Of a stretch of 64,000 nt of DNA, positions 28,056 through 56,330 are shown piece by piece (within the stretch, counting starts at the first letter, position 1; every line of letters begins with the position of its first letter). The DNA comes from Streptomyces canus (GTDB lineage: Bacteria > Actinomycetota > Actinomycetes > Streptomycetales > Streptomycetaceae), in NCBI RefSeq assembly GCF_041435015.1, contig NZ_CP107989.1, positions 372,001-436,000 of the forward strand, given 5' to 3'. Position numbers and translations under genes: made by a program. The notes beneath the pieces are model-generated. The model was given only the letters and a program-made list of their open reading frames with translations, had not been told where the DNA came from and made no database searches.

Positions 28056-29444
28056 TCACTCGTCGTTCACCCACCGCATGAGCCGTTGCAGCGGGTAGAA
28101 ACCGTCGTGGGACAGGCCCGGCGGCATGCCGCCCGCCCTGCCCAGGGAGACCACGCGTTGCACGCCGGCGCAGGCGAGGGCGTCGCGCAGTTCCGCCTTG
28201 CGGGTGTCGGGGTACACGCCGACCGTCTGGGTGGCGACCCCGGCATGGGTGACGGCCTCGGACAGGGCGGCGACCGGGACGACGTCCACGATCTTCCCGT
28301 CGGGGTGGAAGTCCACGGGTTCCGGTGAGCGGATGACCAGGCCCCGGCCGTCGTAGCCGCCCCACACCCGGTACTCGGGTTCCATGGACCGCAGGACGTC
28401 GATCTCCTCGCGCAGTTCCGCGGCCACCCGTGGGCCGATAGCTGAGCTGAACTCCCTTGCCACACCCAGGCGTTCACACAGTAGGGCGGCGTAGCGGTCG
28501 GCGTCGTCCCAGGATCCCTCGACGAACTGGAAGCGGCTGGCCACGCAGGCCTGCTGGTTGAAGAACGTGGCGTCGGCGGCGCCCGCGTCGGCCGCCCGGG
28601 CCAGGCTCTCCTCGGACGTGAAGGCCTCGCGGCCGATCATCGAGATGGAGGTCTTGGGGTCGAAGGAGACGAGCTCGAACCCCGGGCCGACGTACTTCAG
28701 CGCGCTGCGGATGGTGGACTCGCCGCCCCAGGCGACCAGCTTGTCGAAGAACTGCGGGCGGAACAGCGCGCTCTCCACCACATCGTCACCGCCGCGCCAG
28801 TACGCCGCGGAGAACGACCGCACCACCGGGTGCCCGGGGGCGACCGCGGCCATGGTGCGCAGGATCGCGGTCGCGGTGAACAGGTCGTTCGAGGGCAGTT
28901 TCAGGAGGTTGACGCCCTTGGTGAGCGCGCCGCGCACGACGGACATCGCGGCGACCCCGGGTGCGTTGCCGGCGATGATGTGCACCAGGCGGGGTGGGAA
29001 CGCGCGGGTGGCCGCGACCCGATCGTCAGGCAGGCGTACCTCGCGCCAGCCGTCGAGCACGTCCGCACCGCCGAGTTCGTGGTCGATCTGGGCGTACAGG
29101 CCGGGGCGTTGGAAGCTGCGCCACAGCACGGCGTAAGCGCGCTCCAGCACCTCCGCCGGCAGCGGGCTGACCGGGGCCATCCGCTCCAGGGCTTCGGCGA
29201 GCAGGCCCGCGCGGTCCGCCTTGAGCGCCTCGCCGGTCTCCACCAGCAGGTCGACGATCTCCGCGACGGGCACATGGAAGGCGGGGCCGGGTTCGGTGCG
29301 GGGCCACACGAGGCGGTCCAGGTCGAGGGCCGGTGCGGCGAACCGGCCGAGGTCGACGGGGGTGCTCCGGTCGACCTCGCCCCGGATCACGTGGACGACG
29401 GTCACGGGGGCGGCCGCGGTGCCGCCGAGTGTCGTACCGCTCAT
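28056..29444 (-). CDS. LuxC-like acyl-CoA reductase
   Basis: 462-residue protein of the LuxC family (aldehyde dehydrogenase superfamily), which reduces activated acyl groups to aldehydes with NADPH. The nucleophile region is FFNQQACVASRFQF with Cys300, and the cofactor domain includes HIIAGNAPGVAAMSVVRGAL. In luminous bacteria LuxC works with LuxE; here the luxE-like gene lies directly upstream and overlaps by one base (TGATG). No luciferase gene is present in the window, so the aldehyde probably feeds catabolism. ATG at 29444 is chosen for this overlap. It is the last gene of the livK-livF-luxE-luxC operon. Confidence 0.82.
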   Translation of the reverse strand: MSGTTLGGTAAAPVTVVHVIRGEVDRSTPVDLGRFAAPALDLDRLVWPRTEPGPAFHVPVAEIVDLLVETGEALKADRAGLLAEALERMAPVSPLPAEVLERAYAVLWRSFQRPGLYAQIDHELGGADVLDGWREVRLPDDRVAATRAFPPRLVHIIAGNAPGVAAMSVVRGALTKGVNLLKLPSNDLFTATAILRTMAAVAPGHPVVRSFSAAYWRGGDDVVESALFRPQFFDKLVAWGGESTIRSALKYVGPGFELVSFDPKTSISMIGREAFTSEESLARAADAGAADATFFNQQACVASRFQFVEGSWDDADRYAALLCERLGVAREFSSAIGPRVAAELREEIDVLRSMEPEYRVWGGYDGRGLVIRSPEPVDFHPDGKIVDVVPVAALSEAVTHAGVATQTVGVYPDTRKAELRDALACAGVQRVVSLGRAGGMPPGLSHDGFYPLQRLMRWVNDE

Positions 29445-30793
29445 CAGTGGATCATCCCCCGCACATAGGAGTCGAGTGTCGCGGCGCAGGTGATCTTGTC
29501 GTCGCCGCCGAGGTCGCCGTAGCGCCGAATGTCCGGCAGGACCGCCGGTCCGGGGCGGCCGCAGGCGCACGGCGAGAAGTCCACGAAGACACGGTCGCCG
29601 CTGATCAGCCCACCCCAGCGGCCCTCCAGGGAGATGTCGAGGAACGCGAAACGCCCTTCCACCACACCCTGTTCGGGGTTGAGCAGCTTCTCACCGGGCT
29701 CGTCCAGCACCAGGGGGATCACCCAGGGCGGCACGTGGTAGTTGCCCTGCTCGCAGGCGAGGCAGGAGCCCTGGAGCTCGGTCATGCCGTAGCTGCGTAC
29801 CCGGCGTACCCCGTCGTAGAAGGCGGTGAGCTGCTGCTGGTAGTCGTCGGGCAGGGCGCGGCCCTTGTTGCCGCCGCCGCTGAGCACCAGTGTGTCCGGG
29901 TGCAGGCTGCCGTCGGCCACACCGCGGGCGCGCAGGGCCTGGATGAGGGTGAACTGCTGGTTGTTCATGCCGGCGATCAGCAGCGGCTCGTCGCGGTGCG
30001 CGGCGATGTCGTCGACGATCCGGGCCATGGCCGCGCCGAGTTCCCCCTCGCGGGACTCGGAGGCGGTCTCGAAGGAGCTGATCTCCTGCGGAGTGGCGGC
30101 TCCCTCGGCGATCCGGCGGCGCAGCAGCGCGCTGCTCATCAGCTCGGACACCCGCATCGGGTCCTCGGTGAGCAGTCGCGTCTCGCCGGGTTGGGCGAAG
30201 ACGTCGGCGTGCCAGCGGAAGCCGTCGATGGAGCGCATCGGGCCGCTCGCGGGTGCGAGCAGATAGCCGCGGCGGGTGGGTTTCGCCGGCAGCGGGTCGG
30301 GCCAGCAGGTGAGGTGCTCCAGGATGTCGTGCAGGAAACTCAGGTCACTGGCGTCGCAGTTGAGGAAGGAGACCTTTCCCGAGGTGCCGCTGGTGATGTA
30401 CGGGCGGTGGCCGGCGGCGGTGATGCGGTCGGTCCACTCGTCGATGTCGCGGACGCCGTCCATGTCGACGTCGCCGGGTTCGACCGCCGACACGGTCGTG
30501 TACCAGCGCAGGAGCCGGTCCCAGCGGCCGGCGGTGATGAGGGAGACGGGGTAGGACTTGTAGCTCGTGTGCGAGAAGAGCAGCGGCACGAGGTCGTCGA
30601 GGCCGGTGACCTCCTCCACGCCGGTCTCCGTCGCCCGGGTGCGCAGCAGCGGAACCCGCTCGCGGTGGGCGGTGAAGGTCTCCCGGGCGGCCTCCAGCTG
30701 CAACTCCCGCAGTTCGTCGGCCGGTTGGTCGAAGGTGTCGCCGGAAAGGACGAGGGATCGGATCTGCTCGCGTGCGCCTGGCACAGCGTTCAC
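29444..30793 (-). CDS. LuxE-like acyl-protein synthetase (acyl adenylation)
   Basis: 449-residue member of the ANL-type adenylating enzymes of the LuxE group. The ATP-binding P-loop YITSGTSGK lies near residues 133-141 and YGMTELQGSC near 330 is the AMP-binding signature; CACGRPGP near the C-terminus is Cys-rich as in related ligases. LuxE activates a fatty acid and passes the acyl group to LuxC. GTG at 30793 starts one base after the livF stop. The pair implies reduction of a free acid to an aldehyde; the chain type is unknown. Confidence 0.8.
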   Translation of the reverse strand: MNAVPGAREQIRSLVLSGDTFDQPADELRELQLEAARETFTAHRERVPLLRTRATETGVEEVTGLDDLVPLLFSHTSYKSYPVSLITAGRWDRLLRWYTTVSAVEPGDVDMDGVRDIDEWTDRITAAGHRPYITSGTSGKVSFLNCDASDLSFLHDILEHLTCWPDPLPAKPTRRGYLLAPASGPMRSIDGFRWHADVFAQPGETRLLTEDPMRVSELMSSALLRRRIAEGAATPQEISSFETASESREGELGAAMARIVDDIAAHRDEPLLIAGMNNQQFTLIQALRARGVADGSLHPDTLVLSGGGNKGRALPDDYQQQLTAFYDGVRRVRSYGMTELQGSCLACEQGNYHVPPWVIPLVLDEPGEKLLNPEQGVVEGRFAFLDISLEGRWGGLISGDRVFVDFSPCACGRPGPAVLPDIRRYGDLGGDDKITCAATLDSYVRGMIH

Positions 30794-30794
30794 C

Positions 30795-31520
30795 TCAATC
30801 AGTTGCGTACGTTGTCTTTTCCGCTGTGGCTTGCGCGAGGTACGACGACTCGATCGCGTCGAGGTTGCCGCGCAGTTCCTTCGGGGTGCCGGTCATGGTG
30901 ACGCGGCCGCGGTGCAGGACGTACACGCGGTCGGCGATGTCCAGCACCTTGCGCACGTGCTGTTCGACCAGCAGCGCGCCGAGGCCGCGGTCGGCCGCCT
31001 CGCGTACCGCGCGCAGGAGGCGGTCGACCACCAACGGGGCGAGACCCAGGGAGAGTTCGTCGGCGAGGAGCAGCTTGGGCGCGCGGCACAGGGCGCGGGC
31101 CAGCGACAGCATCTGCTGCTCGCCGCCCGACAGCATGCCCGCGCCGGTTCTGAGGCGCTTTTCGAGTTCGGGGAAGAGTTCCAGTGCCTGCTGGGACCTC
31201 ACCCGGCCGACCCGCAGGTTGTCCGCGGTGTCGAGCCGGGTGAAGACCGCCCGCTCACCGACGTACGCCAGGCCCTGACGGGCCCGGCGGTGCAGCGGTG
31301 CGCGGCCGGGTACGCCCAGCCAGCGCACCTCGCCGCCCATCGGGGCGAGGCTGCCGGAGAGCGCCCGGAGGGTGGTGGTCTTGCCCGCCCCGTTGGGGCC
31401 GAGCAGGGCGACCACCTCGCCGGGCCGGACCTCCAGGTCGAGATCGCGTACGACGGGCCGGCTGCCGTATCCGGCGGACAGGGAGCGTGCTTCTATCAGG
31501 GGTGCGTCGGTGTCCGGCAC
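30795..31520 (-). CDS. livF: Liv-type ABC transporter ATPase (LivF)
   Basis: 241-residue ABC ATPase of the branched-chain amino acid/carboxylate importer class. Walker A is GPNGAGKTT (41-49), the signature LSGGEQ starts at 130 and Walker B is LLLADE (150-155). It pairs with the LivG domain of the fused protein at 32905-35601. GTG at 31520 was chosen because GAGGAG overlaps the binding-protein stop just upstream. It lies between the binding protein and the luxE-like gene in one operon. Confidence 0.9.
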   Translation of the reverse strand: MPDTDAPLIEARSLSAGYGSRPVVRDLDLEVRPGEVVALLGPNGAGKTTTLRALSGSLAPMGGEVRWLGVPGRAPLHRRARQGLAYVGERAVFTRLDTADNLRVGRVRSQQALELFPELEKRLRTGAGMLSGGEQQMLSLARALCRAPKLLLADELSLGLAPLVVDRLLRAVREAADRGLGALLVEQHVRKVLDIADRVYVLHRGRVTMTGTPKELRGNLDAIESSYLAQATAEKTTYATD

Positions 31521-31531
31521 GGGCCTGCTCC

Positions 31532-32776
31532 TCAGCTGGACGGCAGGGCCGTCAGGACCTTGCGGACGTCGACGAAGGTCGATCCGGGCTTGGCCCACTC
31601 GATCTTCCCGTCGCGGATGGTCAGTTCGGTGGCGGTGGTGTTGTGGATGCGGTTGAGGCCCTTGATCGGCAGGGCCGTGGACGCCTTCCAGCTCAGCGGC
31701 GGGGTCAGTCCGCCGGTGTTGATGCCCGGGGCCGTGTCGAGCTCCTGCACCAGGGCCTTCGCCGTGATCGTCGGGAGCGTCTTGGCGGCCTCGGTGAAGA
31801 CCTTGAAGGCCACCCAGGTCGTCTCGTCGGCGCCGTTGCTGGTGTCGATGTCCTTGTCGCCCTTGGTGGCCGCGAGGAAGTCCTTCCAGGCGGCGTCGGA
31901 GGTCGGCGGGAAGTAGCCGGTGATCGCGGCGCCCTCCAGAGGGCCGCCGGCTCCGCCGGTGCTCTCGGCGAGCTGCGGGGTCAGGTTGCCGACGACGCTG
32001 CCGAGCTTCGTCTTGGCGCCGGACTGCACGTACGACTTCACGAACAGGCCCGAGGCGGTGCCCATGATGACGCTCACGCAGTCGCTTCCCTTGGTCGCGG
32101 CGGCGACCTGCGGGGCGAGGTCGGTGGCGGTGAGGGGCACCTTGATGTCCTTGGGCGCCGCCCCTCCGGCGGAGACCGCGCCGACGGTGAGGAACTGCGA
32201 GACGACGGCGGCGGCGGCCACGTCGTAGCGCACGCCGGAGATCTTCTTGCAGCCGTTCTGGACCAGTTGCCGACCGTGGGCCGCGAACACCACCGGGGTG
32301 CCGCCGTTGACCGGGAACGACAGCGGGTTGGAGAACTCCGCCGCCGAGACTCCGGTGCCACCGATGTACGGGATGCCGGCCTTCTGCAGGATGGGCATGT
32401 AGCGATCACCGGCGAGGCTGTAGGAGCCCACCACCGCGACCACCTTCGCGGCGACCGCCTGCTGGGCGCACTTCTCGGCCTCGTCGGGGTTGTTCTTCTC
32501 GTTGCAGGTGAGCACCTTCAGCGGGGCGCCCTTGATCCCGCCGTTGGCGTTGATCCACTTCTCGTACGCCTGGGCGGTGAGCCGGACTCCGGGCTGGGCG
32601 CTGCCCTGGGTGTCCTCCGGCGCCCAGACCATCACCTTGACCGGTGTGCCCTTCAGGGCGGAGGTCTCCTCCTTCGAACTGCCGGACGCCTCTCCCCCGC
32701 AGCCGGCGGCGAGCAGGACTCCGGTCACCGCGAGAGCGCTCGCTGCGGCGGTTCTGCGTCGGCGTGAGTGGTTCAT
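31532..32776 (-). CDS. livK: Liv-type substrate-binding lipoprotein (LivK)
   Basis: 414-residue periplasmic-binding-type lipoprotein. The lipobox LLAAGCGG predicts lipidation near Cys26, and the mature domain is of the LivK/receptor family with MVWAPEDTQGSAQPG and CNEKNNPDEAEKCAQ. These proteins bind branched-chain amino acids but also amides, aromatic acids and other carboxylates, so the ligand is open. It is first in the operon with livF, luxE and luxC, and is divergent from the fused permease/ATPase gene. The upstream region contains a candidate GntR site. Confidence 0.9.
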   Translation of the reverse strand: MNHSRRRRTAAASALAVTGVLLAAGCGGEASGSSKEETSALKGTPVKVMVWAPEDTQGSAQPGVRLTAQAYEKWINANGGIKGAPLKVLTCNEKNNPDEAEKCAQQAVAAKVVAVVGSYSLAGDRYMPILQKAGIPYIGGTGVSAAEFSNPLSFPVNGGTPVVFAAHGRQLVQNGCKKISGVRYDVAAAAVVSQFLTVGAVSAGGAAPKDIKVPLTATDLAPQVAAATKGSDCVSVIMGTASGLFVKSYVQSGAKTKLGSVVGNLTPQLAESTGGAGGPLEGAAITGYFPPTSDAAWKDFLAATKGDKDIDTSNGADETTWVAFKVFTEAAKTLPTITAKALVQELDTAPGINTGGLTPPLSWKASTALPIKGLNRIHNTTATELTIRDGKIEWAKPGSTFVDVRKVLTALPSS

Positions 32777-32861
32777 GGTTCCTCCGCTGTGCTCGTCGTC
32801 GAGATGCCGAACAGCATGGGGTGCGTTTTGCAGTTAGTGAAGTACTCTCGGCACAATTATT

Positions 32862-32875
32862 TAAATGAATGCACT
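32862..32875 (+). promoter_or_regulatory. Candidate GntR operator, site A
   Basis: TAAATGAATGCACT in the liv divergent promoter, matching the reverse complement of site D (54203-54216) at 11 of 14 positions. It belongs to the TARATRA family of elements found in all four promoter regions of the catabolic set. It is embedded in an AT-rich stretch (32855-32870). Confidence 0.45.
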
Positions 32876-32904: not shown

Positions 32905-35601
32905 ATGGACGACATCCTGCGGTTCGCGCTGCTGGGCCTGGGCCTGGGGGCCCTGTACGCGCTCACCGCGCACGGCATCGTGCTGGTCTACCGGGGCTCC
33001 GGCGTCCTGAACTTCGCGCACGGCGCGATCGGAATGGCCGGGGCCTATGTCCAATGGGAGCTCGCCACCCAGCACGGCATGCCGTACTGGCCCGCGACCG
33101 CGTGCGGCGTGCTCACCTCCGCCCTGCTGGGCGTGCTCACCCACCTGTTGGTGCTCCGCCCGCTGCGCAGAGCGTCCTCACTGGCCCGCCTGGTCGGCAC
33201 CCTGGCGGTCTTCATCGTGCTCACCGCGATCGCCGTCAAGCGCTACGGCGACAGCCTCGAGCTGGTGCCGGGCAAGCTGCCCACCAAACTGCTGACGATC
33301 GCCGGGGCGACGGTCTCCCAGGACCGCATGTGGCTGATCGGCATCGCGGTCCTCGTGACCGTGCTCCTCCACCTCCTCTACAGGCGCACCCTGTTCGGCC
33401 TGGGCACCAGCGCGGTCGCGGAGAACGAGGGCGCCGCCGCCTCGCTCGGCTGGTCCCCGGACCTGATCGCCACCGGCAACTGGGCGCTGGGATCGGCGCT
33501 CGCGGGGCTGACGGGCATCCTGATCGTGCCGGTCATCGGTCTGTCGGTGACCGGGCTGACCACCCTCCTGCTCAGCGCCCTGGCCGCCGCCCTGGTCGGC
33601 AGGTTCTCGTCGTTCCCGATCACGCTGGCGGGCGGCCTGGTCATCGGCGTCGTGCAGTCCGAACTGACCCGCTTCGGCTCCGACGTCACCGGGCTCGCCG
33701 CCTCGGTCCCCTTCCTGTTCATCGCCCTGGTGCTGGTCGCACGCGGCCGGGCGCTGCCGCTGCGCGGCACGTTCCTGGACCGGCTACCCGGTCTCGGCAC
33801 CGGGAAGGTCCGCCCCCTGCCGTTGGCGCTCGCCGTCGTGGCCGGGCTGTCGCTGGTGAGCCTGGCGACACCGCTGTGGGCCGACGCGATCACCACCACC
33901 CTGGTGCTGTCGCTGATCATCCTGTCGATCGTCGTGGTCACCGGGTACGCGGGACAGGTCTCTCTCGCGGCCTACTCCCTGGCCGGGACCGGCGCCTTCC
34001 TCGCCGGACACGCGGCGGCCGACTGGGGTTGGCCGTTCGAACTCGCCCTGCTGGCCGGGGTGTTGGGTACCGTGCCGATCGGCTTGCTGTTCGCGCTCCC
34101 CGCGGTCCGCACCCGCGGTGTCAATCTCGCGATCATCACGCTCGGCCTCGGCACCACGCTGGAGGCGATGGTCTTCCAGAACACCGACCTGTCGACGACC
34201 CCCGGCAGCGACGGCATCGCGGTGGGCAAGCAGACACTCTTCGGGATCAGCATCTCCGGCGTCGACCATCCGCAGCGGTACGCCGCCGTGGTGCTCGTGC
34301 TGTTCGTCGCCGCCACGCTCGTGGTCGCCAATGTACGGCGCAGCCGGACCGGCCGCCGGCTGATCGCCGTACGGGCGAACGAGCGGGCCGCCGCCGCCCT
34401 CGGCATCGACGTCCGCGCCGCCAAGCTCTACGCCTTCGGCCTCTCCTCGGCCATCGCCGCGCTCGCCGGCGTACTCACCGGCTTCCGCTCGACCTCGGTC
34501 GTCCTGTCCGACTTCGCGAGCTTCGGCTCCATCACCGCGCTCGGCCTCGCGGTCATCGGCGGTGTCGGTTTCCTCGTCGGCCCACTGTTCGGCGCGACCT
34601 TCGCCGCGGGCACGGTGGGCGCCCGGTTCGGGGACCTCGTGCTGCCCGGGCTCAGCGAGTGGATGCCGCTGATCGGCGGAATCGTCCTGGTGCTGACCCT
34701 GGTGGGCAACCAGGACGGCATCGGGGCGGGGCTCGGCAAACGAGCGGCGGGGAACCGGCGCGAGCTGCCCCCGAAGCGGCCGGCGACCGTCCCGGAGGAC
34801 GAGCCGTCGGCCGCCCCGACCGTGACCCGTGCCGCCCCGCTCCTCCTCCAGGTACGGGACCTCACCGTCCGCTACGGCGGTGTCGTCGCCGTCGACGGGC
34901 TCTCACTGGACGTCGGGCCGGGCGAGGTCGTGGGGCTCATCGGTCCCAACGGCGCCGGCAAGACCTCCGCCATCGACGCGGTCACCGGCTTCACGCGGGC
35001 CGCGTCGGGCAGTGTGCGCCTCGGGGACCGGGACGCGACCCGGCTGGCGGTCCACCGACGGGCCGCCGCCGGTCTGAGCCGGTCCTTCCAGTCTCTGGAA
35101 CTGTTCGAGGACATGACCGTCCTGGACAACCTGTACGCGGCCTGCGACCGGCCCGGCCGGTGGGCGTACCTCACGGACCTGGTCCGTCCCGGCAGCCGCC
35201 CACTGCCTGCCCATGTGCTCGTCGCGGTAAGGGAGTTCGGTCTCCAGGACAGTCTGGACCGGCCGGTGGGCGACCTGTCGTACGGAGAACGTCGGCTGCT
35301 GGCCATCGCCCGCGCGGTGGCGGCCTCGCCGTCCGTGCTGCTCCTCGACGAACCGGCGGCGGGCCTGTCGGACGACGAGACCAGGGAGTTGGCCCACCTG
35401 GTACGGCGGCTCGCCGAGGACTGGGGCATGGGCGTGCTGCTCGTCGAGCACGACGTCGACATGGTGATGAGCGTCTGCGACCAGGTCGTCGTCCTGGACT
35501 TCGGCCGCCGCATCTGCGCCGGTACGCCGGAGGAGGTCCGGCGCGATCCGGCGGTACGGGCGGCCTACCTGGGCGACCTGGAGCCGGAGACGCTGGCCTG
35601 A
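32905..35601 (+). CDS. Fused Liv-type permease-permease-ATPase (LivH-LivM-LivG)
   Basis: 898-residue fusion of three importer parts. LivH-like permease occupies about 1-290 (LNFAHGAIGMAGAYV), LivM-like permease about 300-625 (TRGVNLAIITLGLGTT) and LivG-like ATPase about 650-898, with Walker A GPNGAGKTS near 681 and Walker B LLLDEP. It should work with the separately encoded LivF ATPase and LivK binding protein. The start at 32905 is chosen because GGGAGG lies 8 bases upstream; an ATG at 32869 would add 12 residues. A strong hairpin follows the stop. Confidence 0.9.
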   Translation: MDDILRFALLGLGLGALYALTAHGIVLVYRGSGVLNFAHGAIGMAGAYVQWELATQHGMPYWPATACGVLTSALLGVLTHLLVLRPLRRASSLARLVGTLAVFIVLTAIAVKRYGDSLELVPGKLPTKLLTIAGATVSQDRMWLIGIAVLVTVLLHLLYRRTLFGLGTSAVAENEGAAASLGWSPDLIATGNWALGSALAGLTGILIVPVIGLSVTGLTTLLLSALAAALVGRFSSFPITLAGGLVIGVVQSELTRFGSDVTGLAASVPFLFIALVLVARGRALPLRGTFLDRLPGLGTGKVRPLPLALAVVAGLSLVSLATPLWADAITTTLVLSLIILSIVVVTGYAGQVSLAAYSLAGTGAFLAGHAAADWGWPFELALLAGVLGTVPIGLLFALPAVRTRGVNLAIITLGLGTTLEAMVFQNTDLSTTPGSDGIAVGKQTLFGISISGVDHPQRYAAVVLVLFVAATLVVANVRRSRTGRRLIAVRANERAAAALGIDVRAAKLYAFGLSSAIAALAGVLTGFRSTSVVLSDFASFGSITALGLAVIGGVGFLVGPLFGATFAAGTVGARFGDLVLPGLSEWMPLIGGIVLVLTLVGNQDGIGAGLGKRAAGNRRELPPKRPATVPEDEPSAAPTVTRAAPLLLQVRDLTVRYGGVVAVDGLSLDVGPGEVVGLIGPNGAGKTSAIDAVTGFTRAASGSVRLGDRDATRLAVHRRAAAGLSRSFQSLELFEDMTVLDNLYAACDRPGRWAYLTDLVRPGSRPLPAHVLVAVREFGLQDSLDRPVGDLSYGERRLLAIARAVAASPSVLLLDEPAAGLSDDETRELAHLVRRLAEDWGMGVLLVEHDVDMVMSVCDQVVVLDFGRRICAGTPEEVRRDPAVRAAYLGDLEPETLA

Positions 35602-35684: not shown

Positions 35685-36479
35685 TCAGGCGTCGCGCAGA
35701 TCCGCGACATACGGCTGATGGGACAGGAGCCCGCCGTCCACGCGCAGGGTGTGCCCGGTGACGAAGGCCGACTCGTCGGAGGCGAGGAACACGACCGCCG
35801 AGGCGACGTCCTCCGGGCGCCCCAGGCGCGGGGTGAGGTGATGGCGCAGCATCGCCTCCCGGATCGCCCCGTGCGCCGAACCGGAGCTGGCCGGGGTGAC
35901 GATGAACCCCGGTGCGATGGCGTTGCAGCGCACGCCCTGCTTGCCGTACTGGGTGGCGACGTACTGCGTGAGGTTGATGAGGGCGGCCTTCGAGGCGCCG
36001 TACGCCGGATTGCGCAGATCGCCCGAGAGGCCGGCGCCGGACGAGGTGTTGATGATGGAGCCGCCGCCCCGGGCGATCATGTGCGGGACGGCGGCCTGGA
36101 TGGCGACCATGGTCCCGCGCAGGTTGATGCGCATCGTGTCGTCCCAGACCGCCGGGTCGGCTTCCACGACGGCGAGGTCCTGACGGGCGGCCAGGTGGGT
36201 GGCCGCCGCGTTGTTGTGCAGGACGTCGAGACCTCCGTACGTCTCCACCGCCGCGGTCACCATGGCCCGTACGCTCTCGATGTCGCCGAGGTCGACCGGG
36301 ACCGCCGTCGCGGAGCCGCCGGCGGCGCGGATCTCCTCCGTCACCGCCTTGGCACCCTCGAGGTTCAGGTCGGCCACGACCGTGTGGGCGCCCTCGGCCG
36401 CGAGGCGGCGGGCGGTGGCCGCGCCGATGCCGGACGCGGCCCCGGTGACGACGGCTATCTTGTCCTGGAGTCGCGTCAT
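35685..36479 (-). CDS. Short-chain dehydrogenase/reductase
   Basis: 264-residue SDR. The cofactor motif is VTGAASGIG (about 10-18), NNAA replaces the usual NNAG strand motif, and the catalytic residues appear in STS..YGASK (Tyr and Lys). It probably oxidises a hydroxyacyl-CoA or related alcohol with NAD(P). It is the last gene of the operon starting at 41160. Substrate not assigned. Confidence 0.88.
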   Translation of the reverse strand: MTRLQDKIAVVTGAASGIGAATARRLAAEGAHTVVADLNLEGAKAVTEEIRAAGGSATAVPVDLGDIESVRAMVTAAVETYGGLDVLHNNAAATHLAARQDLAVVEADPAVWDDTMRINLRGTMVAIQAAVPHMIARGGGSIINTSSGAGLSGDLRNPAYGASKAALINLTQYVATQYGKQGVRCNAIAPGFIVTPASSGSAHGAIREAMLRHHLTPRLGRPEDVASAVVFLASDESAFVTGHTLRVDGGLLSHQPYVADLRDA

Positions 36480-36494: not shown

Positions 36495-37703
36495 CTACTC
36501 GGTGAGTTGACTGCCGACAACCGACACGAACGAGACGCACTCGCCGGGTCCGCCGCCGAGGTTGTGGGTCAGGGCGAGCGAGCGTCCTTCGGCCACGGAC
36601 TTCACGGTCCGCTCGGCCGGTGCCTCGCCGCGCAGTTGGAGCCAGGCCTCGAACATCATCCGCAGGCCGGAGGCGCCGATGGGGTGGCCGAAGGCCTTCA
36701 GGCCGCCGTCCGGGTTGACCGGCAGCGAGCCGTCCAGGTCGAACGCGCCGCTGGTGACGTCCTTCCAGCCCTGACCGCGCTCGGAGAAGCCCAGGTCCTC
36801 CATCAGCACCAACTCCGTGGGCGTGAAGCAGTCGTGGACCTCGGCGAGGGCGAGTTCGGCGCGCGGGTCGGTGATGCCCGCCTGCCGGTAGGCCTCCTGC
36901 GCGGAGGCGACGACCTCGGGGAAGGTGGTGAAGTCGTACTCGGGGTCGAGGAGCCCGTCGGCCGGACCGGCGACGAAGGACAGCGCCTTCACGAAGATCG
37001 GCTTGTCGGTGTACTTGTAGGCGTCCTCGGCGCGCACCACGATCGCCGCCGCCGAACCGTCCGAGACGCCCGAGCAGTCGAACACGCCCAGCATGCCCGC
37101 GACGATCGGGGCCGACCGGATGCGCTCCAGCGGGACCTCCTTGCGGAACTGGGCGCGCGGGTTGCGGGCCCCGTTGACGTGGTTCTTCCAGGCGATGCGG
37201 GTGATGACGTCCTTCATCTCCTCCCCCGCCAGGCCGTACTTGGCGGCGTAGGCGGGGGCGAGGAGGGAGAAGTTGGCCGGGGCGGTGATCTCCCCGCGGC
37301 TGTCGTCTCCCGCGCCCGGAATGACGGTGCCGGACAGCCCGGACATGCCGGAGTCCTTGAGCTTCTCCACGCCGACGGCCATCGCCACGTCGTACGCCCC
37401 CGAAGCGACGGCGTAGCAGGCGTTGCGCAGCGCCTCGGAGCCGGTCGCGCACATGTTCTCGACGCGGGTGACCGGCTTGTGGGGCAGGTGGAGCGCCCGG
37501 CTCAGGGTCAGCCCGGACACGCCGGAGGCCTGGGTGCCGAACCAGTACGCGTCGATGTCGTCGAGGGTGATGCCGGCCGAGGTGACGGCCTCGCCGACGG
37601 CGTCGATCAGCAGGTCGTCCGCCGAGCGGGTCCAGTGCTCGCCGAAGGGCGTGCAGCCCATGCCGACGATCGCGACCCGGTCCCGTATTCCGTGCGAGCC
37701 CAT
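36495..37703 (-). CDS. SCP2-type thiolase/lipid-transfer thiolase (Ltp-like)
   Basis: 402-residue thiolase-fold protein of the SCP-x/Ltp class, lacking an SCP2 tail. Motifs: VENMCATGSEALRNA with the nucleophile Cys near 88, EVHDCFTPTE, GHPIGASG, and THNLGGGPG at the C-terminus. Relatives cleave beta-ketoacyl-CoAs or act as retro-aldolases in steroid side-chain breakdown together with a DUF35 partner. The upstream gene encodes a DUF35 fusion and overlaps by one base (TGATG), so a complex of the two is likely. Confidence 0.85.
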   Translation of the reverse strand: MGSHGIRDRVAIVGMGCTPFGEHWTRSADDLLIDAVGEAVTSAGITLDDIDAYWFGTQASGVSGLTLSRALHLPHKPVTRVENMCATGSEALRNACYAVASGAYDVAMAVGVEKLKDSGMSGLSGTVIPGAGDDSRGEITAPANFSLLAPAYAAKYGLAGEEMKDVITRIAWKNHVNGARNPRAQFRKEVPLERIRSAPIVAGMLGVFDCSGVSDGSAAAIVVRAEDAYKYTDKPIFVKALSFVAGPADGLLDPEYDFTTFPEVVASAQEAYRQAGITDPRAELALAEVHDCFTPTELVLMEDLGFSERGQGWKDVTSGAFDLDGSLPVNPDGGLKAFGHPIGASGLRMMFEAWLQLRGEAPAERTVKSVAEGRSLALTHNLGGGPGECVSFVSVVGSQLTE

Positions 37704-39139
37704 CAGTGTGTCCCCTCGGTCTCGCCCGTGCGCACCGGCCGGGCCTTCCAGAAGTAGTTGTGGACGCCGGACGCGGTGACCGTGCGCCGGAAGGTCATCT
37801 CGACCCGGGCGCCGATGACGGCGTCGGCCTCCGTGGCGTCGGTCAGCTGGCAGCGGAACCGGCCGCCGCCGTCGTAGTCGACGACCACGACGAGCATCGG
37901 CGGACTCGGCGTGGCCGCCAGGCGGTCGACGGTGAACGTGGCGACCGTGCCGCGCACGTCCGCCATCGGCTCGTCGGTCATGGCGTCGACGCTCCGGCAC
38001 GAGGTGCACACCCGGTCCGGCGGCAGATGCCGGGTGGCGCACTTCTCGCAACGGGAGGCGACGAAGCCGTACTTCCATCCGGTGCGGCGGTGTGCGGGCG
38101 GGGCGTAGGGCGGCTCGGGGTCCGGCCGGCGGGGTGGTTCGCGGTCGAGGAGGCCGCGCCAGGACAGGTAGGTGGCGTACGGCATCGGGGCGCTGCCCTG
38201 GGCGATCTGAGCGGCGACCGGGCGGGCCGCGCGGTGTGCGGGGAGTGCGTCGGTGGTGCGCAGCAGGAGGACTCCGGCGCCGTCGCCGAGTACGACGAGG
38301 GCGATGGTCTCGCCGGACCGGGCCCGATCGAGGACGTCGGCGAGGAGCAGGCCCGGCTGGGCGGTGCCGGCGTTGCCGATCACCCCGGCCAGGTCCGGGG
38401 TCACCGCCTCGGCGCGGACCCCGGCTGTGCGCCGGACCGCCGCGCACGCGCGCGCGTGCAGGCCCGCGACCACGAAGTGGTCGATCGAGCCGATGTCGAC
38501 CGCCGCGTGGTCGAGGGCCGCGGTGAGCGCCCTGTCCGCGAGGGACACGTAGATCTCCTCGGCGAAGCGCTCCTCCCAGACCCGGGAGACGGGCGCGCCC
38601 GGCAGCCGCCAGCGGTCGAGAATCTCGTCGCTGACCGTGTCATGAGCGAGCAACTCCGCGATGACCGGGGCTCCGTTGCGGTGCCCGCCGAAGACGAACG
38701 CCGCCGCGCCGTCGCCGCCCGCGACCTCGTCGCTGCCGCCGGGCAGGCCGGTGCGCAGGTCGGACAGGACCGTCAAGGTCGTTACCGGGGATCGTGCGGC
38801 CGTGACCAGGGCACCGAGGCCGGAGCGCACGGAGCCGGCCATGTCGGCGGCGAGCACGTGCGGGTCCAGGCCGAGCGCGGCATGGACGGCGGTGGCGTTG
38901 GTCTTGTCGAGGTAGGCGGGTGCGGCGGTGGCGAGGAAGAGCTGGCTGACGCGGGCGCGCAGTCCGTCGCGGGCCAGGGCGCCGCGGGCCGCCTCGACGG
39001 CCATGGACGTGCTGTCCTCGTCGTAGCCCGCGACCGCGCGGGTTCCCTTGCCTCCCTTGCCGCCCAGGGCGGCTGCGACATCCGTCCTCGCGAGGCGGTG
39101 GTACGGCACGTAGGCGCCGTATGCGATCAGTCCGGCCAT
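37703..39139 (-). CDS. HMG-CoA-synthase-like protein fused to DUF35 (OB/zinc ribbon)
   Basis: 478-residue fusion. The first 320 residues resemble 3-hydroxy-3-methylglutaryl-CoA synthase/KAS III (AGLIAYGAYVPYHRLAR, a GNAGTAQPGLLLADVL segment). Where the catalytic Cys is expected the sequence reads LAADMAGSVRSGLGAL, so the nucleophile is missing. The C-terminal part is a DUF35 unit with a zinc ribbon (CEKC near 361, CTSC near 374) and an OB fold. In archaea DUF35 bridges thiolase and HMG-CoA synthase, and in mycobacteria it pairs with an Ltp aldolase. A scaffolding or channel role with the Ltp-like protein is plausible. Confidence 0.8.
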   Translation of the reverse strand: MAGLIAYGAYVPYHRLARTDVAAALGGKGGKGTRAVAGYDEDSTSMAVEAARGALARDGLRARVSQLFLATAAPAYLDKTNATAVHAALGLDPHVLAADMAGSVRSGLGALVTAARSPVTTLTVLSDLRTGLPGGSDEVAGGDGAAAFVFGGHRNGAPVIAELLAHDTVSDEILDRWRLPGAPVSRVWEERFAEEIYVSLADRALTAALDHAAVDIGSIDHFVVAGLHARACAAVRRTAGVRAEAVTPDLAGVIGNAGTAQPGLLLADVLDRARSGETIALVVLGDGAGVLLLRTTDALPAHRAARPVAAQIAQGSAPMPYATYLSWRGLLDREPPRRPDPEPPYAPPAHRRTGWKYGFVASRCEKCATRHLPPDRVCTSCRSVDAMTDEPMADVRGTVATFTVDRLAATPSPPMLVVVVDYDGGGRFRCQLTDATEADAVIGARVEMTFRRTVTASGVHNYFWKARPVRTGETEGTH

Positions 39140-39140
39140 G

Positions 39141-40391: not shown

Positions 40392-40413
40392 CAGCACTGC
40401 CTTTCATGAGGGG

Positions 40414-41160
40414 TCACATGTACCGGCCGCCGGTGACCTCGACCACGGCTCCGGTGACGTAGCTCGCCAGGTCGGAGGCGAGGAACAGGACGACCTGGGC
40501 GACCTCGGCGGGCTCTCCGGCACGTCCCATCGGGATCTCCGCGAGCTTCGCGTCCCAGGCGGCCCTGGGCATCGCCTCGGTCATGGCGGTGCGGATCAGA
40601 CCGGGCTGGACGGCGTTGACGCGTATCCCGGCCCGGGCGAGTTCCTTGGCGGAGGCCTTGGTGAGGCCGACGAGTCCGGCTTTGGCGGCGCTGTAGTTGG
40701 TCTGCCCGAAGTTGCCGACCTTGCCGGCGATGGAGGAGATGTTGACGATGCTGCCGCCCTGGCCGTGCGCGCGCATCGCCTCGGCGGCGTACCGGGTGCC
40801 GTTCCAGGCGCCGGTCAGGTGCACGTCGACGACGGCGCGGAAGTCGGCGAGAGCCATCTTGCGCAGGGTCGCGTCCCGGGTGATTCCGGCGTTGTTGACC
40901 ATGACGCCGACCGGTCCGAAGATGTCGGTGCCGTGGGCGACGAGGGCGGCGACCTCGTCCTCGTCGGTGACGTCGCAGCGCAGCGAGGTGGCTGCCACGC
41001 CGTTCTTGGCGAGGCGTTCGGCGGCTTCCGCGGCCGCGTCCTCGTTGATGTCGCCGAGGACGACGGACGCACCCTCGGCGCCGAGGACTCCGGCGATCTC
41101 GAAGCCGATGCCCTGTGCGCCGCCGGTGATCACCGCGTTGCGGCCGTCCAGCAGTCCCAT
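40414..41160 (-). CDS. FabG-like SDR (hydroxyacyl-CoA dehydrogenase candidate)
   Basis: 248-residue SDR. Cofactor loop [13 protein letters not shown] strand, Ser in NISSIAG and YSAAK catalytic pair are present; the ending [14 protein letters not shown] is typical of FabG-type enzymes. It probably acts as a 3-hydroxyacyl-CoA dehydrogenase in the pathway. [10 protein letters not shown] at 41160 is the natural start; earlier in-frame ATGs would add a non-conserved leader crossing the promoter. First gene of the minus-strand operon; divergent from the acyl-CoA dehydrogenase gene. Confidence 0.9.
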
Positions 41161-41194
41161 GTCAGCCCGCCCTGGCTCGACGCTATTCCTCTCA

Positions 41195-41210
41195 AATAGA
41201 TAACCTATTA
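41195..41210 (+). promoter_or_regulatory. Candidate GntR operator, site B
   Basis: AATAGATAACCTATTA in the fabG/acyl-CoA dehydrogenase divergent region. AATAG and CTATT form a perfect inverted repeat around ATAAC, and TAGATAA matches the TARATRA core shared by the other sites of the set. Confidence 0.45.
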
Positions 41211-41272
41211 TGCTGAAACAATCAATACAGCGACTGAGCTGTGCGCACGGGCCGGACGAGGAGAGTACGCAG

Positions 41273-47023: not shown

Positions 47024-47024
47024 G

Positions 47025-52528: not shown

Positions 52529-52628
52529 TCCAGCACCGCGCTGCGCGACGCACACTCCGCCGCGAACGGGAGAGATACGCCCGTCGACGCGACGCCCGCG
52601 AGGATGCAGACGTCGGACGGCAACGCGT

Positions 52629-53222
52629 TCAGGTGGTGCCGGACGTCCCCGGTCCACGCCCCTCGAAGGTCCTGAGCGGCGGCACCGGACGCGGGCCGGT
52701 CCCCGGGACCCAGCCCGCGTCGAGCTTGCGCAGGCCCACGCCGTCCGGCGCCCAGATGTGGCAGCTGTTCAGCACACCGGCCGTGGAGCGCGGGCCCTGC
52801 GACTGCTCACCGGCGTACCGCAGGCCCGCGTTCGCCGAGATGGCCGCCTGCACCACCGCGGGGCCCAGGACACGGGCCAGCTCATGCAGGTGCGAGCAGC
52901 CGGACACCCCGCGGAACCGCTCCTGGATGGCCCGGTTGTAGCCGGCGGCCACGCTGAGCCCGACCAGCCCGTCGAACACCGGGGTGATCAAGGGGCACTC
53001 GGCGTGCGGGAAGGTCCGCATGTCCGCGTCGGCGTGCACGATGACCATGTCGGCCAGACGGACGCGCACGGCGAGCGCCATCCGGTGGACGACGTCGGCC
53101 GACGGCTCCGCCCAGGGGCGCACGTCGCTCAGTTCCGCCTCGACCGAGATCTCGTCGCCGCCTTCCGCGTACGCGGTGACGGTGATCGTACGGCGGTGCA
53201 GCGGACGTCCGGAGCGCGTCAC
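52629..53222 (-). CDS. DUF2889 protein
   Basis: 197-residue protein of the DUF2889 family, found beside aromatic and acyl-CoA catabolic genes. Visible features: VTRSGRPLHRRTITVTAYAE, EAELSDVRPW, ADMRTFPHAECPLI and FRGVSGCSHLHELARV. The function is unknown; the conserved His and Cys could bind metal. GTG at 53222 overlaps the enoyl-CoA hydratase stop (GTGA), so it is translationally coupled to a beta-oxidation gene. Confidence 0.8.
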   Translation of the reverse strand: MTRSGRPLHRRTITVTAYAEGGDEISVEAELSDVRPWAEPSADVVHRMALAVRVRLADMVIVHADADMRTFPHAECPLITPVFDGLVGLSVAAGYNRAIQERFRGVSGCSHLHELARVLGPAVVQAAISANAGLRYAGEQSQGPRSTAGVLNSCHIWAPDGVGLRKLDAGWVPGTGPRPVPPLRTFEGRGPGTSGTT

Positions 53223-54058
53223 GAGGAGGCCTCCCCCGGGAGCGCCGATGCCGGGACCGGGGCCTCCCCCAGCCCCGCGAACTCCGGGGGTCTGCGTTCG
53301 ATGAAGCTGCGCACGCCCTCGCGGTAGTCCGGGGCGCGCTTCGCCGTGGCCAGCAGGGCGGCCGCGTGGTCCTGGCTCTCGGTGAAGGTCCTCGCCTGGT
53401 CGTCGGCGAGCTGCCGCTTGATGAGGGACATCGCGTACGGGCTGGCCGATCGGGCCAGTTCGGTCGCGTACGCGAGCGCCGTCGGGAGCAGCTCCGCCGG
53501 CTCGACCAGGCGGTTGACCAGCCCCATCGCCAGGGCCTCCGTCCCGGTGATCCGGCGCGAGGACAGCAGCAGGTCGGCGGCGTTGCCGTAGCCGACCAGC
53601 CGGGGCAGGAGCCAGGACACACCGTCCTCGGCCACCAGCCCACGGGCACTGAAGGCGGCGGCGAACTTGGCGTGCGGTACGGCGAACCGGACGTCGCACA
53701 TCAGCGCCTGGTTGAAGCCGATGCCCGCGCAAGCTCCGTTGACGGCCGCCACCACGGGCTTCGGGAAGGACATGGGCCGGGTGCGCGGGGGCAGTTGGTC
53801 CGTCGGCCACGGGCGGGCACCCGATGAGGCCGCGTCGAGCACACTCATGTCCATGCCCGGGCAGAAGCTGCGCCCGGCGCCGGTGAGCACTACGGCTCGC
53901 ACCCGTGGATCGTGCTCCGCCCGGTCGAACAGTTCGTTGTAGAGCAGCTCCATCTCCAGCGTCCAGGCGTTGTGCCGCTCGGGCCGGTTCAGGGTCAGCA
54001 GCATGACCCCGTCGTCGGTGAGATCGGTGAGGATCTCCGGGGCCGGGTTCTCGGTCAT
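53219..54058 (-). CDS. Enoyl-CoA hydratase/isomerase
   Basis: 279-residue crotonase-fold protein. The oxyanion-hole segments are LTGAGRSFCPGMDM (about 60-73) and VNGACAGIGFNQALMCDVRF (about 110-129), with the expected acidic residue in FSARGLVAEDG. It should hydrate an enoyl-CoA made by the acyl-CoA dehydrogenase, or rearrange a double bond. ATG at 54058 has GGGAG upstream; an earlier in-frame start would lie within the putative operator. It overlaps the DUF2889 gene. Confidence 0.9.
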   Translation of the reverse strand: MTENPAPEILTDLTDDGVMLLTLNRPERHNAWTLEMELLYNELFDRAEHDPRVRAVVLTGAGRSFCPGMDMSVLDAASSGARPWPTDQLPPRTRPMSFPKPVVAAVNGACAGIGFNQALMCDVRFAVPHAKFAAAFSARGLVAEDGVSWLLPRLVGYGNAADLLLSSRRITGTEALAMGLVNRLVEPAELLPTALAYATELARSASPYAMSLIKRQLADDQARTFTESQDHAAALLATAKRAPDYREGVRSFIERRPPEFAGLGEAPVPASALPGEASS

Positions 54059-54102
54059 CGAGGTCACTCCCGCGGTATCCGTCGGCTGGACCGGCTTTAT
54101 AG

Positions 54103-54119
54103 ATAGATGAATCATCTAT
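54103..54119 (+). promoter_or_regulatory. Candidate GntR operator, site C
   Basis: ATAGATGAATCATCTAT is a perfect 17-base palindrome around a central A, just upstream of the enoyl-CoA hydratase start. TAGATGAATCATCT (54104-54117) matches the reverse complement of site D at 12 of 14 positions. It is the best-formed site of the set. Confidence 0.65.
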
Positions 54120-54202
54120 ATACCAACAACCGCCGGGGCACCAGATCGGTTCGCGCAAGGAGAAGATCACCGATGGCTTGACCTGGTACCCTCGATGCAC
54201 TA

Positions 54203-54216
54203 AGACGATTCATTTA
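54203..54216 (-). promoter_or_regulatory. Candidate GntR operator, site D
   Basis: On the minus strand this reads TAAATGAATCGTCT, matching site C at 12 of 14 positions. It lies 20 bases before the gntR start, so autoregulation is likely. Confidence 0.6.
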
Positions 54217-54235
54217 GCTATACGAGGAGCCCACT

Positions 54236-55039
54236 GTGGCCGAGGCAGCCCGCACCGCAGAAACGGCGACCGTGCCGGTCCCCGCCCGCAGTCGCGTCGG
54301 ACGTCAGGTGCGGGTGCCGAAGACCGCCGAGCTGGTCGCCGCACACCTGCGTCGCCAGATCGTACGGGGCGAGCTGAAGCCCGGCGACGCGCTGCCCCCG
54401 GAGTCGGGCCTGATGGAGCAGTTCGGCATCTCACGGCCCACACTGCGCGAGGCGTTCCGGGTGCTGGAGTCGGAGTCCCTGATCACGGTGCGCCGCGGCG
54501 CCCACGGCGGTGCCCGGGTGAGCGCTCCCGACTCGGATGTCGCCGCCCGCTTCGCCGGCCTGATCCTCGAGTACCGCGGCGCCACCCTGGGCGACATCTA
54601 TCGTGCCGCCGCCCTCATCGAGCCGCCCTGCGCCCGCCAGCTCGCCACCAAGCACACGGCGGACGACATCAAGCGACTGCGCGACGCGGTGGCGGCCGAG
54701 AAGGCCGTTCTCGAGGACCCGCTCGCCCTGGTCGACGCACAGGACGCCTTCCACGCCCTGCTGGTCGAACTCACCGGCAACCAGACCCTGATCCTGCTGT
54801 GCGGCATGCTGCGCAACATCATCGACCGGGCCAACGCCTCGTACACGGCGGGCGCGGCCGATGCCGAGGCACAGAAGACGCAGGCCCTCAAGGGACACCG
54901 GGCGCATGTGCGGATGGTCGGCCTGATCGAGTCCGGCAAGGCGGACGAGGCCGAGAAGCTGTGGCAGCGGCACATCTCCAGCGCGGACGACGTCGTGAAC
55001 GCCGCAGGACCCAAGACGGTGCTCGAACTCCTCGACTGA
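54236..55039 (+). CDS. FadR-type GntR regulator
   Basis: 267-residue regulator. The N-terminal GntR winged helix is KTAELVAAHLRRQIVRGELK and EQFGISRPTLREAFRVLESE, near residues 25-80. A C-terminal FCD-type all-helical ligand domain follows, with IYRAAALIEPPCARQLA. Such proteins often sense acyl-CoAs or pathway acids. GTG at 54236 has GAGGAG nine bases upstream. It sits inside the catabolic set, beside its own candidate operators (C and D), and related elements occur at the liv, fabG/acyl-CoA dehydrogenase and amidohydrolase promoters. Confidence 0.93.
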   Translation: MAEAARTAETATVPVPARSRVGRQVRVPKTAELVAAHLRRQIVRGELKPGDALPPESGLMEQFGISRPTLREAFRVLESESLITVRRGAHGGARVSAPDSDVAARFAGLILEYRGATLGDIYRAAALIEPPCARQLATKHTADDIKRLRDAVAAEKAVLEDPLALVDAQDAFHALLVELTGNQTLILLCGMLRNIIDRANASYTAGAADAEAQKTQALKGHRAHVRMVGLIESGKADEAEKLWQRHISSADDVVNAAGPKTVLELLD

Positions 55040-55095
55040 CCGGCCCGACCTCGCGGCGGCTCCGCCTCCACTCCCCCTTGCGCTCTCTAATCAGT

Positions 55096-55110
55096 TAGAT
55101 AATTATAGAA
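55096..55110 (+). promoter_or_regulatory. Candidate GntR operator, site E
   Basis: TAGATAATTATAGAA lies 39 bases upstream of the amidohydrolase start. TAGATAA matches the TARATRA core of sites A-D, though the rest is more divergent. Confidence 0.35.
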
Positions 55111-55148
55111 GGCGTACTGAATAGTTCCTGGGGCCCGGAGGCGACGCC

Positions 55149-56330
55149 ATGGCCGAACAGCGCAAGCCCATCTTCGACTGCGACCAGCACATGTACGAGG
55201 AACGGGACTCCTTCACCCGCTACCTTCCGAAGGAGTTCCTCGGTGCGGCCGTCGCCCCGGTGACCCTGCCGGACGGGCGGGAGGTGATCCTCGCCGGGGA
55301 CCGCATCGTCGTATGCCTGGAACCGGAGTTCGGGCAGGTCTACCGTCCCGGTTCGCTCAAGGAGATGCTCAAGGCGATGGCCTCGGGCAATCCCGAGGAG
55401 ACGTACCAGTTCGAGCCGATGCACGAGTCGTACCAGAACCGCGACGCCCGGCTGCGCGTCATGGACGAGCAGGGGCTGGACCAGACGATCATCTACCCGG
55501 GCGGCTGGGCGCTGGTCGCCGAGGAGTACGTGAAGGGCGTGGAGCCGCTCTACGCGAACTACCACTCCTTCAACCGGTACATGAACGAGGTCTGGGGCTT
55601 CAACCACCAGGGCCGCATCTACGCCCCCGCGCTGCTGTCACTGCGCGATCTGCCCAGCGCCGTCAAGGAGCTGGAGTTCGTCCTGAACCAGGGCGCCCGC
55701 TTCATCCTGCTGCCCACCGGCCCGGTCTACGGCCGCTCGCCCGGCGACCCGTACTTCGACCCGTTCTGGAAGCTGGTCAACGAGGCCAAGGCGAGCGTCT
55801 GCTACCACATCAGCGAGTTCTACTACAACTCGCAGGTGGCGCCCTCCTGGGGCTACGACCCGAACCCCATCCACTTCCGGATGTCGGCCTGGCAGTGGCA
55901 GAACACCTACGGCCAGCGCCCCGTCGAGGAGACGCTGTCCGCGCTGATCTTCGACAACCTCTTCGGCCGTTTCCCCGACATCAACGTCCTGGTGTCCGAG
56001 TTCGGCTCCGAGTGGGTGCCGCACTTCGTGCGTCACATGGACAAGAGCCGGGGCATGGGCCGCAACGGCCCGTGGATCGGCGGGCAGTTGGACGAGCGCC
56101 CCAGCCAGGTCTTCCGCAAGCACATCCGCGTGGTGCCCTATCCGGAGGACGACATCGTGAACGTCGTCAAGCGCCTCGGCTACCACGAGTCCCTCGTCAT
56201 GGGCTCCGACTTCCCGCACGCGGAGGGCCTGGCCAACCCCGGCGACTTCCGCAAGCTCATCGCCGAGCTCGACGAGTCCGCCCAGGACGACATCATGTAC
56301 AACAACGCCCAGCAGCTGATCACCCGCTGA
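55149..56330 (+). CDS. Amidohydrolase-family (ACMSD-like) hydrolase
   Basis: 393-residue metal-dependent TIM-barrel protein of the amidohydrolase-2 type. The metal-site motifs are FDCDQHMYE near residues 9-17, CYHISEFYY near 217-225 and GSDFPHAEG near 356-364. Members hydrolyse or decarboxylate aromatic and ring-cleavage products. GGAGG lies 7 bases before the ATG. It is near the end of the GntR-linked catabolic set and is followed by a strong hairpin. The reaction is unassigned; ring opening or decarboxylation are possibilities. Confidence 0.88.
   Translation: MAEQRKPIFDCDQHMYEERDSFTRYLPKEFLGAAVAPVTLPDGREVILAGDRIVVCLEPEFGQVYRPGSLKEMLKAMASGNPEETYQFEPMHESYQNRDARLRVMDEQGLDQTIIYPGGWALVAEEYVKGVEPLYANYHSFNRYMNEVWGFNHQGRIYAPALLSLRDLPSAVKELEFVLNQGARFILLPTGPVYGRSPGDPYFDPFWKLVNEAKASVCYHISEFYYNSQVAPSWGYDPNPIHFRMSAWQWQNTYGQRPVEETLSALIFDNLFGRFPDINVLVSEFGSEWVPHFVRHMDKSRGMGRNGPWIGGQLDERPSQVFRKHIRVVPYPEDDIVNVVKRLGYHESLVMGSDFPHAEGLANPGDFRKLIAELDESAQDDIMYNNAQQLITR

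Follow-up and report, generated by a model that had tools for sequence, protein, structure and literature searches.

Do the AT-rich elements that recur at several promoters of a Streptomyces canus locus form the operators of one regulon and, if so, which protein reads them? The locus lies in a stretch of 64,000 nucleotides (the window, positions 372001-436000 of contig NZ_CP107989.1, in a genome of 10,677,318 bases), in which the original prediction had placed about 14 catabolic genes under a single GntR-type regulator, here called GntR1. Positions past the window edge are given as contig position minus 372000 (window frame). Our analysis makes it probable that these elements are the operators of a local regulon and that GntR1 is their most likely reader, across two classes of sites. 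This regulon would control a ~70-kb catabolic cluster (28 to ~98 kb) together with an acyl-CoA dehydrogenase gene near 120 kb.

All five predicted elements, A to E, are present where they had been placed, and every one of them holds the heptamer TARATRA on one strand. Site A, together with a conserved block (32833..32875), occupies the divergent promoter from which livK-livF-luxE-luxC runs leftward and livHMG rightward. Site B (41194..41225, minus strand) is an AATAG-GTTAT-CTATT inverted repeat that overlaps the promoter-like pair TTGATT-17-TATCTA, between an operon of five genes that runs leftward (SDR2-thiolase-HMGS/OB-thiolase-SDR1, where SDR stands for short-chain dehydrogenase/reductase) and an acyl-CoA dehydrogenase (ACAD) gene that runs rightward. 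Site C (54098..54123, minus strand), at the promoter of the enoyl-CoA hydratase (ECH) and DUF2889 genes, contains a 17-base odd palindrome (54103-54119) inside GATTCATCTATCTATA, with every position but the centre base (16 of 17) matching the reverse complement, as had been claimed. In the same intergenic region, site D (GATTCATTTAGCTATA) directly follows the gntR1 promoter TTGACC-17-TAAGAC (promoter and site together, 54178..54222, plus strand); C and D do agree at 12 of 14 positions, their common part being GATTCATYTNNCTATA. Site E (TTAGATAATTATAG; 55095..55110, plus strand) lies at the amidohydrolase promoter. These sites are intergenic, since SDR2 starts at 41160 and since ACAD and ECH probably start at 41273 and 54058, respectively. 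The same operator family is thus found at the promoter of the regulator gene itself and at other promoters of the cluster, as expected for an autoregulated local regulon. TARATRA had been proposed as the common core: it is indeed present at all five sites, but the sites form two classes, TTCATYTA (A, C and D) and TTATCTA (B and E), rather than variants of one core. Half-site spacing also varies, as the arms of C flank one central base while B and a further site described below (93880) have a 5-nt spacer.

The evidence that sets these elements apart is their rarity, for which the reversed motif served as the control in each genome-wide count. TARATRA occurs 262 times in the genome (reversed control: 284) and 11 times in the window (control: 3), where ~1.6 would be expected; seven of the 11 are at the five sites. 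It is found in 8 of 10 promoter regions, a score that none of 1000 shuffles reached, although this test is partly circular because the regions were chosen for their sites. Three of the four other copies in the window (21470, 46392 and 55489) are inside coding regions. The fourth, TAGATGA on the minus strand at 26204, is in a TetR/MFS intergenic region (26151-26299); being a lone 7-mer without the extended motif, it was set aside as a cluster site. The claim that the elements sit at promoters of the Liv, Lux and CoA genes is therefore strongly supported, while the claim that other promoters carry none has to be amended for this copy.

The narrower core TARATAA is found 14 times genome-wide, compared to 40 times for its control, and seven of the 14 fall within a 62-kb contig interval (404857-467114; binomial ~8e-13, a post hoc figure since the core was derived from these sites and the interval set by them). 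Four of these seven lie past the right edge of the window, upstream of cluster genes located there, and were not used in making the motif: they are four of the 11 outside-window matches and fall within 31 kb (~2e-8, with the last match as the right end of the interval). The seven copies outside the cluster were rejected as sites, two being in called coding regions and none coming within 3 mismatches of either extended pattern. TARATGAAT has five copies (control: 2), of which three are A, C and D and one is coding (1966.7 kb); the only other intergenic copy, at 492.3 kb (120.3 kb in the window frame), precedes an acyl-CoA dehydrogenase open reading frame (ORF) by 19 bp, near genes for a thioesterase and a zinc alcohol dehydrogenase. 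As for the extended patterns, TTAGATAATTATAG has three matches with no more than 2 mismatches, each of them in the cluster: E itself (55095), 77020, which is its one further exact copy in the genome, and 72125. Likewise, TATAGNTARATGAATC, the C-type pattern, has C and D as its only matches without mismatch, and 72066 plus two places elsewhere at 2 mismatches. At up to 3 mismatches, the counts equal or fall below those of the controls (11, of which 8 have 3 mismatches, versus 13 for TTAGATAATTATAG; 17 versus 17 for TATAGNTARATGAATC), so that 3-mismatch matches to TTAGATAATTATAG carry no weight alone and only the best matches discriminate. Equally good matches scattered over the genome would have spoken against the original prediction; the counts do not refute it, as the best ones are concentrated in the cluster.

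The set does not end with the window. In a second part of the cluster (part 2, 67-98 kb), one divergent region carries both classes, with a C-type site at 72066 and a TARATAA site at 72125, and further TARATAA sites lie in divergent regions at 77020 and 95108 and upstream of a second GntR gene, gntR2, at 85169, in a region that carries TTATCTAG. Two sites are weaker. A B-like palindrome seen by eye in the aldehyde dehydrogenase promoter (93880), CTAAATAG-CTAAC-CTATTTAG, lies over the pair TTGACT-17-TAGCTA, and a 3-mismatch match to TTAGATAATTATAG (81297), 41 bp upstream of the ECH3 ORF, also coincides with the end of a called ORF that has no Pfam match. The elements are thus a set of some 12 sites, two of them weaker, spread over about 70 kb, with part 1 inside the window and part 2 outside. 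The predicted regulon of about 14 genes stands as one operator family, but its size does not: five promoters head 15 ORFs in the window, if same-strand neighbours are co-transcribed, and the set running past the window is more than twice as large as had been thought.

We then considered the conservation of these sites in relatives. A scan of named genomes gave 31 gntR1 loci, 29 of them from Streptomyces (85-98% identity), and gntR1 is patchy, with matches in 11 of 249 genomes of the same family (E<=1e-40). The following counts include the window itself and relatives that are akin to one another and were all picked for carrying gntR1: site A is kept in 27/28 upstream regions, B in 28/31, C as an exact 15-mer in 29/36, D in 33/36 and E in 27/36. 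The set for A leaves out G261 and G025, whose LivK match is partial or distant, and genomes without a LivK match; its single miss (G266) reflects a misplaced extraction, because the LivK match starts there at residue 27. A simple gene caller that produced over-long ORFs placed some conserved sites within coding sequences (A in G089 and G122, B in G122, E in G030), and these were counted as intergenic by judgement, from upstream alignments or from their position beside a gene start. Most of the ~30 gntR-bearing relatives preserve the elements as blocks, and at D the conserved unit is GATTCATTTNGCTATA rather than TARATRA, with GATTCATTTTGCTATA in many orthologues. Sites recur beside orthologous genes not only in Streptomyces, but also in two other genera of the family: G103 has A, B, C and E, G030 has A, B, E and three further places, and D is present in both. 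In G103, site E is upstream of the amidohydrolase gene, which is not adjacent to gntR1 in that genome.

Which protein reads these sites? GntR1 (54236..55039, plus strand) has a GntR winged helix-turn-helix (HTH; PF00392, 68.6 bits, cut-off 27) and an FCD effector domain (PF07729, 69.9 bits, cut-off 24.3). Its closest PDB structure is NanR (65 bits), and with 110.5 bits against a cut-off of 260 for the NCBIfam NanR model, it does not qualify as a NanR orthologue. GntR2 (84308-85162, window frame) is also of the FCD type: its DNA-binding domain is identical to that of GntR1 at 57 of 71 positions (80%), including the whole recognition helix segment SRPTLREAFRVLESESLI, whereas the rest is identical at 75 of 172 (44%). 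The idea of a GntR-controlled regulon was right in kind, but missed a second regulator with the same reading head.

This second regulator raises the possibility of two interleaved regulons, in which GntR1 would read the TTCATYTA sites (A, C and D) only, and GntR2 the TTATCTA sites (B, E, those of part 2 and the one upstream of its own gene) only. In line with this, each regulator gene has its own class upstream (D and C at gntR1, TTATCTAG at gntR2), and the two classes differ by one base in length as well as in spacing. Still, we consider this arrangement unlikely, considering that the recognition helices are identical, that the divergent promoter at 72 kb carries both classes and that B and E are intact in a strain, Streptomyces sp. 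SA15 (G261), that lacks GntR2. In SA15, the sole genome-wide match to GntR2 (E<=1e-30) is GntR1 itself, and the CoA-transferase of part 2 was not found genome-wide at 1e-120; the 80 kb around gntR1 hold partial-length matches at ~90% for two of 20 part-2 proteins, with no other match above 57%. Sites A (read separately in this strain), B, C and E are nevertheless intact within these 80 kb, and both C and D are in the upstream region of gntR1. The persistence of TTATCTA-class sites in SA15, where GntR2 is missing, is most simply read as GntR1 serving both classes. The 80 kb read (G261:C7:104001-184000) yielded neither LuxE nor LuxC. We also noted in SA15 a site of the 492-kb type beside an ACAD-like match (32% identity to ACAD4), 13 kb from gntR1.

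That the elements are parts of core promoters or signals for an alternative sigma factor, rather than operators, appears quite improbable to us. B and 93880 do overlap TTGAYT-17-TAKCTA pairs and D does follow a TTGACC-17-TAAGAC pair, but the core is nearly absent from the remaining genome, C and 93880 are long palindromes, and B and D lie differently with respect to their promoters. Binding by another regulator, such as the TetR protein encoded at 51842-52528 or an unlinked one, would fit with the sequence-based nature of the GntR link and with a sample made of gntR1-bearing genomes, but is very improbable, as G122 keeps the sites with no TetR match in the 60 kb that were read, and as gntR1 sits between C, D and E and carries D itself.

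Several observations nonetheless weigh against a common operator set read by GntR1, whose binding to the sites is a prediction. A single dimer would not usually read two classes with different half-site spacing, part of the resemblance among sites comes from AT-rich -10 elements, and the extended patterns are no commoner than their controls at 3 mismatches. The site-conservation sample comprises gntR1-bearing genomes only, and SA15 is a draft genome whose 188-kb contig was read over 80 kb. In G271, ACAD and both GntRs are retained, yet B and C motifs are absent and D reads GATTTATTT. The more distant G018 and G025 lack a clear A-E set (1 and 2 site matches, respectively, all three called intergenic) despite encoding both or several GntR relatives. 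In the wider class, GntR relatives are found in 33 of 394 genomes (E<=1e-60; our genome and three known Streptomyces included), with up to five per genome in another family of the class (L174-L189). Among the 16 loci of such relatives that were read, 15 of which were readable, most of those in other families have no clear upstream operator: D-like AATCATTT/AATAATTT is upstream in L174 and L175 only, which weakens the claim of one operator across the class.

The reading head of GntR1 itself is non-canonical for its subfamily. At HTH position 28, where arginine is found most often, this amino acid has been described as strongly preferring G/C in the TKGT/ACMA box (PMC4494728). Position 28 is Ser in GntR1 and GntR2, none of 19 aligned GntR rows has an Arg there, and neither do the 15 readable loci of the wider class, whose reading heads are like that of GntR1. 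Moreover, none of ten cluster promoters checked has a TKGT-N2/3-ACMA pair such as that of the FadR subfamily, single unpaired boxes being present in four of them. The joint absence of the arginine and of the GT/AC box is consistent with a link between the two, as a correlation only. NanR and BioR, which are FadR-subfamily members, also depart from the TKGT/ACMA box (PMC4494728), so that the missing pair speaks against typical specificity and not against a FadR-subfamily fold.

Comparisons with known regulators show both likeness and difference. GntR1 shares the winged HTH and FCD domains of the FadR subfamily, and its R67 and R71 align with R69 and R73 of NanR, but Ser57 takes the place of NanR Arg59, a residue proposed to contact bases, and NanR reads GGTATA repeats (PMC8012715). 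BioR, compared here by its operator description and not by its protein sequence, also has an AT-rich operator outside the subfamily consensus, TTATMKATAA (PMC4494728), albeit with a different half-site arrangement. In Corynebacterium glutamicum, two paralogous regulators named GntR1 and GntR2 share a common binding site and one catabolic theme; their sites, however, agree with TNGTNNNACNA, their targets are gluconate genes and the two are functionally redundant (PMC2230225), whereas the Streptomyces pair is encoded within a single cluster and shows 44% identity in the sensor parts. Finally, Atu1419, an FCD GntR of the VanR group that controls hydroxycinnamate degradation, is another regulator of a catabolic region with a palindrome over a -10 box, but it binds as a tetramer to two ATGTATACAT palindromes that are 190 bp apart (PMC7797058).

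What do the genes behind these operators encode? Leftward from site A, all on the minus strand, are a LivK-type binding protein (31532..32776; Peripla_BP_6), a LivF-type ATPase (30795..31598; ABC_tran), a LuxE-like protein (29444..30793) and a LuxC-family acyl-CoA reductase (28056..29570; Pfam LuxC, 169.5 bits), which scores 148 of the 750 bits needed for the NCBIfam LuxC equivalog. The 449-amino-acid LuxE-like ORF has no match in Pfam or NCBIfam and is called so from named UniRef homologues, some of which are labelled 'Acyl-protein synthetase LuxE domain' and most 'hypothetical'. Rightward, LivH, LivM and LivG form one 898-amino-acid ORF (32905..35601, plus strand; BPD_transp_2 in two stretches, ABC_tran and BCA_ABC_TP_C), which aligns near full length as a single piece in G089, G103 and G030 and as two pieces in G122. 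Leftward from site B, again on the minus strand, follow SDR2, which is FabG-like (40414..41160; domain match, start read from sequence), an acetyl-CoA acyltransferase (39141..40397; NCBIfam PRK06205, 713.6 bits, cut-off 551), a protein resembling archaeal HMG-CoA synthase and PhlA with a fused ChsH2/DUF35 OB domain (37703..39211; domain and homologue matches), a PRK06157-type thiolase (36495..37703; NCBIfam, 599.7 bits, cut-off 403) and SDR1 (35685..36479; domain match). The PhlACB and archaeal thiolase-HMGS-DUF35 systems have comparable gene arrangements, and the fusion beside the PRK06157 thiolase looks like a fused form of these. ACAD (41273..42499, plus strand) has a probable GTG start after GAGGAG. 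The start of ECH (53219..54058, minus strand) is probably at 54058, outside the palindrome of site C, and the DUF2889 protein (52629..53222, minus strand, start approximate) is the 3' end of a 523-amino-acid ORF (52629-54200) that matches DUF2889 at residues 335-451. The amidohydrolase (55149..56330, plus strand; PF04909) scores 177.8 bits with PDB 4dzi and 62.6 bits with PtmU3. Downstream of it are polyprenyl synthetase and amine-oxidase-family genes (56383-59279), which we take to be carotenoid-like; the polyprenyl synthetase has a match of at least 70% identity in two of the 29 named loci, L046 and L048.

Part 2 encodes CoA ligases, MaoC proteins, enoyl-CoA hydratases, a thioesterase, CaiB-type CoA-transferases, SDRs, acyl-CoA dehydrogenases, the aldehyde dehydrogenase and GntR2, with GH1 and two-component-type genes interspersed. 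The best NCBIfam model for SDR4 (95168) is BadH, a 2-hydroxycyclohexanecarboxyl-CoA dehydrogenase, with 295.6 bits and thus below the cut-off of 431.2. Two ACADs of part 2 score 233.3 and 251 bits for cyclohexane-1-carbonyl-CoA dehydrogenase (cut-off 650) and higher for acryloyl-CoA reductase (309 and 306 bits, cut-off 640). Degradation of alicyclic acids by ring beta-oxidation is known from pathways of the Bad/Ali type, and the genes at ~90.7-100.5 kb (CoA ligase, aldehyde dehydrogenase, ACAD, BadH-like SDR, ECH, CoA-transferase and ACAD) resemble such a pathway, with scores below model cut-offs.

The genes between ACAD and the DUF2889 gene (42.6-52.6 kb; flotillin-like, phosphodiesterase, sugar ABC, DeoR, GH4, NmrA and TetR) look foreign to the operator-marked set, in agreement with their original description as unrelated. 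None of their intergenic gaps above 40 bp contains TARATRA, and G122 is without the block, ACAD adjoining ECH-DUF2889 there. In 17 of the 29 named loci, ACAD starts 2.8-3.9 kb upstream of gntR1, which leaves too little room for the block, and GH4 lies between them in six (L046, L048, L052, L053, L059 and L062).

How might this regulon work? The operator overlaps the -10 element at B and at the aldehyde dehydrogenase site and comes directly after the promoter at D; since operators lie over or just after promoters, we propose that GntR1 without inducer blocks transcription. Bound to both TTCATYTA (A, C and D) and TTATCTA (B and E), it would then keep the uptake (Liv), LuxE/LuxC-like and beta-oxidation-like operons off, as well as gntR1 itself, until an acyl-CoA or free-acid intermediate releases it. 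In strains with part 2, GntR2, with the same reading head but another sensor, may share these operators and add a second signal. Taken together, the genes suggest that an organic acid is imported and degraded in CoA-dependent steps. An alicyclic or terpenoid substrate is no more than a guess, though one that has some support. A literature search limited to open-licence papers gave no published description of this cluster or operator among the matches listed. Taken further, and tentatively, two FCD-GntR paralogues that have a non-canonical reading head in common but different sensors might integrate two pathway signals on shared AT-rich operators, in a large undescribed actinobacterial pathway that would combine Liv import of an alicyclic or terpenoid acid, LuxE/LuxC-like activation or reduction, a PhlA/DUF35-like enzyme acting with thiolase, and ring beta-oxidation.

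For Streptomyces, a nearly genome-unique motif delimits the extent of a catabolic pathway from sequence alone, and it picks up a gene that lies some 20 kb outside the cluster and would be overlooked if proximity were the guide. For the GntR family, the locus presents two regulators that share one DNA-reading surface but differ in their sensors; a natural strain, SA15, kept only one of the two. It also offers a testable link between the loss of the position-28 arginine and the loss of the GT/AC box in GntR operators.

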